Source: Sneathiella chungangensis
GTDB lineage: Bacteria; Pseudomonadota; Alphaproteobacteria; Sneathiellales; Sneathiellaceae
DNA: 64,000 nucleotides
Assembly (NCBI RefSeq): GCF_009882935.1
Contig: NZ_WTVA01000001.1
Span: 62,001-126,000 of the forward strand
Direction: 5' to 3'
In this document: one piece after another, positions 19,387 through 31,819 of the stretch
Layout: each line of letters starts with the position of its first letter
Numbering within the stretch: the stretch's first letter is position 1
Position numbers and translations under genes: made by a program
The notes under the pieces: model-generated
What the model was told of the DNA's origin: nothing
The model's input: the letters and a program-made list of their open reading frames with translations, nothing else
Databases searched by the model: none

Positions 19387-19416
19387 TTGACCGTTTGGTC
19401 AGGTTTTGTCTATGGT
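19387..19416 (+). promoter_or_regulatory. RutR-type operator and preT promoter
   Basis: TGACC (19388-19392), four bases, GGTCA (19397-19401) matches the E. coli RutR consensus half-sites and spacing (TTGACCAnnTGGTCAA). TTGACC at 19387-19392 also forms a -35 box, and TATGGT at 19411-19416 follows after 18 bases, so repressor binding would block this promoter. The 17 bases 19387-19403 occur identically at 31803-31819 (reverse strand). Confidence 0.75.
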
Positions 19417-19482
19417 TTTTTAAAGGCTTGGGGCGGCGGACATCGGCCGCTTTTTTCAGACATGAATAGGGGAGTGCAGGTC

Positions 19483-20823
19483 ATGAGCGACATCGCTGCG
19501 GGACGACTTTCTGGAGAGGAACTGGCGGAGAATTTCGCCGATATTCACCCGCCGCTGGATGCCAGGACCGCGCATATCGAGGCGAGCCGCTGCTACTTCT
19601 GCTATGACGCCCCCTGCATGGAGGCCTGCCCGACGGGCATCGACATCCCGAGTTTTATCCGCAAGATCGCCACCGGCAATGTCCGCGGCTCCGCCATCGA
19701 CATTCTGGAGGAAAATATCATGGGCGGGGCCTGCGCGCGGGTCTGCCCGACAGAGGTCCTTTGCGAGGGGGCCTGCGTGCGCACGGCGCAGGAGGGCAAG
19801 CCGGTGACCATCGGCGCCCTGCAACGCTTCGCCACCGATGATATGATGGCACGCGGGGAACAGCCGTTCGAGAGGGCCGACGCCACGGGCCGGAAAGTCG
19901 CCATCATCGGCGCGGGGCCGGCGGGGCTGGCCGCCGCGCATCGTCTCGCCCAGCTCGGGCATGAATGCGAGGTGTTTGAGGCATTGCCGAAATCCGGCGG
20001 GCTCAATGAGTATGGCATTGCCGATTACAAGGTGGTCGATGACTTCGCACAGAAGGAGGTTCGTTTTATCCTCGGGATCGGCGGCATCACGGTGCAGAAC
20101 GGCAAGGCGCTCGGCCGCGATATCCAGCTCGGCGATCTCCGGAACAGATATGACGCGGTCTTTATCGGCGGCGGCCTTGGCGCGGTGCAGGCGCTCGGTC
20201 TGGAGGGCGAGAGGATCGAGGGCGTTTTTAACGCGGTCGACTATATTGCCGATCTCCGCCAGACGAAGGACAAGGGCACGCTGGCCATCGGGCGGCGCGT
20301 CGTCGTCATCGGCGGTGGCAGCACGGCCATCGATATCGCGGTGAAATCGAAGCGATTGGGCGCGGAGGATGTCACCATCGTCTACCGGCGCGGGGCGGAG
20401 GCCATGAGCGCGACGGCGAAGGAGCAGGAATTTGCGCAAGTGAACGGCGTGAAGATCAAGCACTGGATGCGGCCCGCCGCGATCCTCTCCGATGGCGGCG
20501 CGGTGAGCGGTATCGAATTTGAATATACAAAACAGGGCGCGGACGGCAAACTCACCGGCACTGGCGAGAAAGCGCGGCTCGCCGCCGATATGGTCTTCAA
20601 GGCGATCGGTCAGGTTTTCGTGCCCGATCCGGTTTCCGGCACCGCGGCGCAGCTGGAGCTTAAAAATGGCCGGATCGCGGTCGATGACAGCTACGCAACC
20701 TCGCTCGAGGGCGTGTACGCGGGCGGCGACTGCATCGATGGCAATATTGGGCTCACCGTTGCGGCGGTGCAGGACGGCAAGCTCGCCGCCCATGCAATCA
20801 ATGACTATCTGGCGAAGAAATAG
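19483..20823 (+). CDS. preT: NAD-dependent dihydropyrimidine dehydrogenase, PreT subunit
   Basis: A 446-residue flavoprotein. An N-terminal alpha-helical Fe-S domain has Cys37, Cys40, Cys45, Cys49 (CYFCYDAPCMEAC) and CARVCPTEVLCEGAC. Then come FAD-binding GAGPAGLAAAHRL (about 139) and NAD-binding GGGSTAIDIA (about 283). It passes electrons from NADH to PreA for reduction of uracil or thymine. The ATG at 19483 with GGGGAG upstream is preferred; the TTG at 19387 is inside the operator. Confidence 0.92.
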   Translation: MSDIAAGRLSGEELAENFADIHPPLDARTAHIEASRCYFCYDAPCMEACPTGIDIPSFIRKIATGNVRGSAIDILEENIMGGACARVCPTEVLCEGACVRTAQEGKPVTIGALQRFATDDMMARGEQPFERADATGRKVAIIGAGPAGLAAAHRLAQLGHECEVFEALPKSGGLNEYGIADYKVVDDFAQKEVRFILGIGGITVQNGKALGRDIQLGDLRNRYDAVFIGGGLGAVQALGLEGERIEGVFNAVDYIADLRQTKDKGTLAIGRRVVVIGGGSTAIDIAVKSKRLGAEDVTIVYRRGAEAMSATAKEQEFAQVNGVKIKHWMRPAAILSDGGAVSGIEFEYTKQGADGKLTGTGEKARLAADMVFKAIGQVFVPDPVSGTAAQLELKNGRIAVDDSYATSLEGVYAGGDCIDGNIGLTVAAVQDGKLAAHAINDYLAKK

Positions 20824-20835
20824 GGAGAAAGAGAC

Positions 20836-30233: not shown

Positions 30234-30257
30234 CCAGGAGAAGCCCGGGAGGAATGA

Positions 30258-31715
30258 TTATTCGGCGGCCTCCGCGGTGCGGGAGACCTTGCGAGGCGCC
30301 GTTTCCTTGCGGCGTTTTTCGAGCGCGCCGAAATGCGTGTTGAAGGTCGGGCGCTTGATATAGCGACCCGCGCCCTTGACCACATTGAGCTGACCGTCCT
30401 TGAAGACGACCTTGCCCTGGCTGATCGTATGGCTCGGGCTGCCCTTCACTTCCATGCCTTCAAAGATATTGAAATCGATATTCTGGTGATGGGTTTTGGC
30501 CGAGATGGTGCGCGTCATTTCCGGATCCCACACCACGATGTCGGCATCGGCGCCGACGGAGAGCGAGCCTTTGCGCGGATGGATATTGAAGATCTGCGCG
30601 GCGTTGGTGGAGGTGACCTTGACAAATTCGTTCATGGTCAGCTTGCCGGAATTCACCCCGTGATGCCAGAGCACCGCCATGCGATCCTCAACGCCGGAGG
30701 TACCGTTCGGGATCAGGGTGAAGTTATCGCGCCCGGCCGCCTTCTGCGGCGCGCAGAAGCAACAGTGATCGGTCGCCGTGGTTTGCAGGTTCCCCGATTG
30801 CAGCCCGCGCCAGAGCGCCCGCTGATGATCCTTCGGACGGAAGGGCGGGCTCATCACATGGGCGGCGGCATATTCGAAATCGTCGTTGTAATAGACGCTG
30901 TCATCGATCAGCAGATGCCCGGCGAGACATTCCCCGAAGACCCGCTGACCCTCCAGCCGGGCGCGGGTGATGGCTTCGAGCGATTCCTTGCAGGAAACAT
31001 GAACGATATAGACCGGCGTTTGCAGGACCTGCGCCGTCCGGATGGCGCGGTTGGCGGCTTCGCCCTCAACTTCCGGCGGGCGCGACTGCGGATGCCCTTC
31101 CGGTCCGGTGATGCCTTTCGCCAGCATTTCCTGTTGCAGGTAATAGACCATCTCGCCGTTTTCCGCATGGACGGTGGCCATCGCGCCCAGTTCGCGGCAG
31201 CGTGCGAAGCTGGCCAGCATCATCTCGTCGGAGACCATGATGGCGTTCTTGTAGGCCATGAAATGCTTGAAAGAATTCACGCCCTCTTTCTCGGCGAGGA
31301 TGCCCATGTCCCGATGCACCGTATCGTCCCACCAGGTGATGGCGACATGAAAACTGTAGTCGGAAACGGATTTCTCCGCCCAGCCGCGCCATTTCTGGTA
31401 CGCGTCCATGAGTGGTTCTTCAGGATCGGGGATGACAAAGTCGATGATCTGCGTCGTCCCGCCCGCGAGCGCGGCGGCGGTACCGGTCTCGAAATCCTCC
31501 GACGCGACGGTGCCCATGAAGGGCAGCTGCATATGGGTATGCGGATCGATTCCGCCCGGCATCACATATTGCCCGCCGGCGTCGACAACCTCGGCGTTCG
31601 ACGGCGCCTCCAGATCGTTACCGATGGCCTTGATCACGCCGTCATCGCACAGAATATCAGCCCGGAAGGTGGTTTCGGAGGTAACGACGGTGCCCCCGCG
31701 TATGAAAGTCGACAT
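30258..31715 (-). CDS. Dihydropyrimidinase (hydantoinase)
   Basis: A 485-residue cyclic amidohydrolase: [12 protein letters not shown] gives the first two metal histidines, and [11 protein letters not shown] carries the metal-bridging lysine. VHAENGE and VHVSCKESL supply further ligands, and TATDHCCF the catalytic aspartate region. It opens dihydrouracil/dihydrothymine to N-carbamoyl-beta-amino acids, the step between PreTA and the ureidopropionases. The ATG at 31715 has GAGGAG 6 bases upstream; 31721 is a near alternative. A RutR-type operator lies 90 bases upstream. Confidence 0.9.
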
Positions 31716-31802
31716 ATTCATCTCCTCGTCCTGCAGGTATTTTTTCGTAGCCTGATTTTGACGGTATTTTAGCTTTGCCTTTTCAAAATTGATAGTTAAA
31801 AT

Positions 31803-31819
31803 CCTGACCAAACGGTCAA
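31803..31819 (-). promoter_or_regulatory. Second RutR-type operator
   Basis: TGACC (31805-31809), four bases, GGTCA (31814-31818). The 17 bases 31803-31819, read on the minus strand, are identical to 19387-19403 before preT. TTGACC can again serve as a -35 box, now for the dihydropyrimidinase gene, with TAT at about the same distance downstream. It lies in the 151-base divergent gap, so it can also control the ureidopropionase gene. Confidence 0.75.

Follow-up and report, generated by a model that had tools for sequence, protein, structure and literature searches.

The locus considered here raises the question of whether two identical palindromes in a Sneathiella genome place separately transcribed genes of pyrimidine breakdown under one regulator and, if so, which regulator and which pathway are concerned. 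The window (the whole stretch of DNA analysed, 64,000 nucleotides) contains the 17-mer TTGACCGTTTGGTCAGG as just two exact matches, at positions 19387–19403 on the plus strand and 31803–31819 on the minus strand, a number reached in none of 100 shuffles. The sequence-only reading with which the analysis began had placed these copies before preT and before the dihydropyrimidinase gene, and both the count and the placement are confirmed. The core TGACC-N4-GGTCA has no further exact match in the window; with up to two mismatches it matches 37 times (shuffled mean 21; 0/100 shuffles reach 37), and such loose matches, being abundant, therefore weigh little.

The first palindrome (predicted operator 1, 19387–19403, plus strand) lies 90 bp from a divergent gene for a 221-aa TetR-family regulator (18632–19297, minus strand) and 81 bp from preT (19483–20823, plus strand), distances here and below being measured from the 14-bp core. 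The preT product, presumed to be the FAD/NAD(P)H-binding subunit of dihydropyrimidine dehydrogenase, matches models of the glutamate-synthase-small-subunit type, all those displayed scoring below cut-off. Its name is taken from its position before preA (20836–22110, plus strand; NF006183, 728 bits, cut-off 335), which encodes the catalytic subunit and follows after 12 bp. Next come an M20-type amidohydrolase gene of the hydantoinase/carbamoylase kind (22126–23361, plus strand; NF006769, 692 bits, cut-off 452; TIGR01879, 438 bits, cut-off 204), whose product is a possible beta-ureidopropionase, and, by profile matches, the ABC transporter genes for an ATPase, two permeases, and an NMT1/THI5-type binding protein (23303–27262, plus strand). 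From preT to the last of the four ABC genes, neighbours are separated by −59 to +21 bp; the ABC genes are probably in one operon with preT, preA, and the amidohydrolase gene, and the transporter may take up a pyrimidine or an intermediate of the pathway.

The second palindrome (predicted operator 2, 31803–31819, minus strand) lies 83 bp from hyd (30258–31721, minus strand), which encodes a dihydropyrimidinase of 487 aa (TIGR02033, 607 bits, cut-off 393). The description of this site as standing before dihydropyrimidinase holds, in that it faces hyd, and has to be widened, in that it also faces a divergent carbon-nitrogen hydrolase gene (‘amidase gene’ below; 31867–32739, plus strand) 48 bp away. 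The product of the latter matches PF00795, with N-carbamoylputrescine amidase as its best model (TIGR03381, 254 bits, below the cut-off of 410), and may be a second beta-ureidopropionase. Two unrelated amidase families, each of which could perform the last step of the pathway, are thus encoded in the window, one behind each operator. Mechanical open reading frame (ORF) calling places each operator either at the 5′ end of an open frame or inside its 5′ part; we set the preT start at 19483 and the hyd start at 31721, the points at which similarity to relatives sets in. The gene names given earlier stand, that of preT by virtue of its position before preA, and the term ‘split locus’ proves loose: preT and hyd share a neighbourhood in 11 of the 12 genus genomes with preA and are on different contigs in the twelfth (G001). 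Also beside the pathway genes is a ureidoglycolate-lyase-like gene (28448–29227), of which models match the later part only and which is found in four same-genus maps.

The product of the divergent gene consists of a TetR N-terminal helix-turn-helix domain and a YcdC-type C-terminal domain (TetR_C_3/YcdC), as expected of a regulator of the RutR/PydR type, with both PF00440 and PF08362 exceeding their cut-offs. It is 41% identical to Escherichia coli RutR across 163 aa, and its nearest named relatives, among the matches listed, include Sneathiella and Sneathiellales records (70–73%). Its score of 180 bits against the NCBIfam RutR equivalog (TIGR03613) is below the cut-off of 368 and leaves it outside the E. 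coli type; the same model has only three matches in the genome at 1e-8 or better, the other two scoring 42 and 37 bits. In E. coli RutR, uracil is held by W77, Y97, W167, Q171, and Q179, and the DNA contacts include K52 and K62 (PMC10891134). All five uracil contacts are kept in the regulator (W79, Y99, W169, Q173, and Q181) and are identical in 18/18 aligned sequences, its own included; the equivalents of the two lysines, K54 and K64, are kept as well. The presence of a RutR-like TetR gene divergent from preT is thereby borne out.

These residues also bear on the identity of the ligand. The signal might be a product of the pathway (dihydrouracil or the ureido acid) rather than uracil, given that a sequence by itself proves no ligand and that the sites would control later steps too; the conservation of all five uracil contacts nevertheless makes this unlikely, and uracil is the ligand that we favour. 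The protein bound at the palindromes, in turn, might be another TetR protein, such as that encoded at 27442–28038, which is of the right family and lies in the same cluster, between the operators. Among 11 maps spanning preT to hyd, however, the operators are present in all and this gene in one, that of the window itself, and its product scores 28 bits against the RutR model. It is found in none of the ten comparable same-genus maps and is therefore probably a late arrival, and we have rejected it as the binder; we consider it extremely improbable that any TetR protein other than the RutR-like regulator fills this role.

The genome search proposed with the sequence-only reading returned nine exact places for TGACC-N4-GGTCA in 3.81 Mb, against two for the reversed control. 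Three of the nine lie between pyrimidine genes, namely both window sites and a third site (L009) flanked by upp and a BMP-type ABC gene. Another four (L001, L002, L005, and L008) are well within long ORFs, of which only that at L001 is annotated (as a methyltransferase), and the other two are intergenic, with annotated neighbours that have no pyrimidine role (L006, between gyrA and an Lrp-type gene; L007, between an argS-like gene and xth). Six of the nine are accordingly without a known link to pyrimidines, which counts against the regulon proposed below. The longer form TTGACC-N4-GGTCAG is exact at three places only, at preT, between hyd and the amidase gene, and between upp and the BMP-type ABC gene, all of them at pyrimidine genes; the narrower operator form, which was picked after those three sites were known, returns the identical three. 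Looser sites were considered as further targets and set aside; with one mismatch, L200 and L201 fall inside ORFs and L202 lies where an AraC/DJ-1-type regulator gene begins, and the list of two-mismatch sites has 31 rows altogether (reversed control, 8 and 8).

Conservation was followed across the genus in a set of 24 genomes that includes the source genome. Of these, 18 have the RutR-like gene at 1e-30, the G016 copy being broken into two pieces; hyd was found in 15 and preA in 12. An exact TTGACC-N4-GGTCAG faces preT in all 12 genomes with preA and faces hyd in all 15 genomes with hyd. RutA, which would mark the Rut pathway expected with an E. coli-type RutR, was found in 0/24 genomes in a search whose control did match E. 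coli. These counts support, by comparison, the proposal that the regulator serves the reductive (PreTA) pathway and not the Rut pathway. When the comparison is confined to the 17 genomes with completeness of at least 90% and contamination of at most 5%, each of preA and hyd occurs in 10 of the 12 with the regulator versus none of the five without it (Fisher 0.0034, uncorrected for kinship). One genome that is 66% complete (G005) has hyd and its site with no regulator found, and two others (G014 and G023) keep the regulator, with preA and hyd unmatched and sites at BMP-type transporter operons. In the 13 of 18 regulator loci that were measured, the region of about 300 bp before rutR has an exact site in ten, a site with one mismatch in two, and none in one. 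Most of these sites are the same ones as those before preT; where rutR and preT are apart, each has its own exact site in G010 and G011, and there is none within about 300 bp before rutR in G018, which counts against the reading.

The position of the palindromes relative to promoters suggests how binding might act. At both operators TTGACC doubles as a −35-like hexamer, and taking the best −10-like hexamer at 16–19 bp from it gives TATGGT at 18 bp for preT, as in the window, in nine of 12 genus genomes. For hyd, the hexamer at 19 bp is TATCCT or TATCAA in 13 of 15, the window having TATCAA, a weak one. The ‘same −35 overlap’ noted previously thus holds for the hexamer itself and not for the best spacing to the −10-like element, and the promoters at both operators are pattern matches with putative start positions. 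A consensus promoter scan did find the preT promoter (1 versus 0.2 in shuffles); it found none facing hyd in the operator 2 region, its spacer limit being 18 bp. In the opposite direction at operator 2, the scan recovered TTGCCT-16-TAAAAT (31775–31802, plus strand; 1 versus a shuffled mean of 0.4), which faces the amidase gene and whose last base immediately precedes the operator. Of 15 genomes, 14 retain TAAAAT, and all 15 have TTGCCT, TTGCCA, or TTCCCT at the same spacing; 14 of the 15 same-genus maps show an amidase gene running divergently from hyd, and in the remaining genome (G009), in which none was found beside hyd, AAAAAT replaces TAAAAT (a single case). Since this conserved promoter-like element ends against operator 2, the one operator probably serves two divergent promoters and controls the amidase gene as well as hyd. 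That the conserved block on the hyd side is a site for a second regulator was considered and rejected: it occurs once in the genome and fits the divergent amidase promoter.

The likeness of the two 17-mers beyond the palindrome and their shared −35 overlap had been taken to suggest that both promoters derive from one duplicated promoter, so that their likeness beyond the palindrome would reflect descent. The two promoters do have in common the operator, a T-rich spacer, and a CTAT pattern, and their flanks are more alike than shuffled ones (−8.4). Yet the flanks of the preT and hyd sites resemble each other within a genome (1.83) no more than between genomes (1.85), with 0.53 of 5000 permutations reaching the observed value, and the same is seen for the upstream-side flanks (−4.83 within, −5.09 between; 0.40 of permutations). 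In the window, ungapped comparison of the 60-bp flanks finds agreement at 19/60 and 14/60 positions, and the four centre bases are equal at both sites in only five of 12 genomes. The shared 17-mer is, moreover, close to TTGACCRTTTGGTCAG, a form present at both promoters genus-wide. Descent from a duplicated promoter is thus very unlikely and finds no support here; a recent duplication is rejected, as the comparison within and between genomes gives no sign of it, and a duplication older than the genus may have occurred. The likeness of the flanks is one of shared architecture.

The third site extends the putative regulon to a transporter. A BMP-type binding-protein gene (bmp) is present in 22 of the 24 genus genomes. 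Where the regulator is present, 12 of 17 genomes have an exact site within 100 bp upstream of bmp, and where it is absent, one of five does, which makes a weak test of dependence on the regulator; in two genomes with the regulator (G017 and G021) the bmp site has three mismatches. We regard the upp/bmp site as part of the regulon, less firmly so than the preT and hyd sites. Of 20 stretches examined, ten contain a bmp gene with 75% identity or more, six a distant one, and one (L102) a match to the ABC ATPase only; the remaining three (L100, L103, and L113) have no match to the reference proteins. These stretches were picked by the site and are therefore silent on how often such genes occur without it. 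The six with the distant gene (L099, L106, L107, L109, L112, and L114) carry a second BMP-type ABC operon, with a binding protein 24–28% identical, at an exact core site.

We propose, with a probability of about 0.83, that a uracil-sensing repressor of the RutR/PydR type, encoded by the divergent TetR gene, controls the reductive pathway through the three sites. This proposal is built on the palindromes and their conservation, the regulator's relationship to RutR, and its pocket residues; DNA binding, repression, the ligand, the positions of the promoters, and the role of the transporter are predicted from these. When uracil is absent, a dimer of the regulator would occupy the TTGACC-N4-GGTCA palindromes. 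At preT, where the palindrome contains the −35 hexamer, the bound dimer would block RNA polymerase and so silence preT and preA together with the downstream amidohydrolase and ABC genes. At operator 2, where the palindrome would hold the −35 hexamer of hyd and sit where transcription from the amidase promoter starts, one dimer could silence both genes, and the site before the BMP-type ABC transporter beside upp would place uptake under the same control. Uracil entering the ligand pocket would release the regulator from the DNA and turn the genes on. To a narrower proposal we give slightly less than an even chance: that a single dimer on a single palindrome closes the hyd and amidase promoters in different ways, at the −35 element of the one and the start site of the other, and that the same regulator links BMP-type uptake to the reductive pathway in a genus in which no RutA was found.

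RutR-like control of the reductive pathway has already been reported for Pseudomonas putida, with PydR as the regulator (Hidese et al. 2012, cited in PMC7332683), and the Sneathiella circuit would add to it. PydR belongs to another lineage, and the circuit here would also include an operator between hyd and the amidase gene and a probable transporter site. E. coli RutR represses rutA–G and acts at carAB (PMC10891134); the regulator described here differs from it in its setting, with RutA found in 0/24 genomes of the genus, and resembles it in its 41% identity, in its ligand-pocket residues, and in a near-identical site upstream of E. coli carA. In RegPrecise, RutR regulons for the catabolism of pyrimidines have been predicted by reconstruction in 68 proteobacterial genomes of 13 groups, with taxon-specific changes of motif (PMC5343134), and their targets are likely to overlap the regulon proposed here. 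A narrow literature search on RutR/PydR and on RutR with upp or ABC transporters returned no paper naming the genus among those listed; at that scope, the regulon may already be published. What the locus offers is a regulon for pyrimidine breakdown that can be tested in a genus where the reductive pathway occurs and the search for RutA found none. Through their shared operators, the BMP-type ABC transporter becomes a candidate for pyrimidine uptake and the divergent amidase a second candidate beta-ureidopropionase; the general picture of the pyrimidine pathway is unchanged.

Comparison beyond the genus bears on the nature of the operators. The consensus of E. coli RutR is a palindrome like TTGACC-N4-GGTCAA, and operators of this kind stand before the pyrimidine genes here. 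Upstream of E. coli carA is TTGACCATTTGGTCCA, identical to the window site in 13 of its first 14 bases, and a RUT box has been described upstream of carAB (PMC6245113). The E. coli rutA–rutR gap holds only a match with two mismatches, which is within chance. In a wider sample, the best 80 of 592 confirmed candidate RutR loci in named organisms, gene upstreams were scanned within 300 bp for sites with at most one mismatch. Of the 23 usable loci among these (those with a preT match and enough upstream sequence), 22 have a site before preT, exact in 16, and shuffled preT upstreams carry one in 1.3%. By the same 300-bp measure, sites stand before rutR in 17/80 loci, the ABC ATPase gene in 16/27, hyd in 3/16 (L163, L172, and L178), the amidohydrolase gene in 2/23, and preA in 0/22, the permease genes in 0/27 and 0/28, the binding-protein gene in 0/28, and upp and the distant bmp in 0/12 each. 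The counts for hyd and the ABC ATPase gene may be explained by the many loci that have hyd behind preA and by others in which an ABC gene heads its own group. In Cupriavidus, the immediate neighbours of rutR are upp and a distant BMP-type gene; neither has a site within 300 bp, and an exact one lies about 3.4 kb before rutR. Conservation in the genus, the carA-upstream site, and the named loci agree in supporting the designation of the window sites as operators of the RutR type. Some relatives have two exact core sites in tandem before preT, with starts 22–24 bp apart (L226, 810/834; L227, 5584/5608; L119, 908/932; L123, 9851/9873; L124, 9852/9874), and the window has one.
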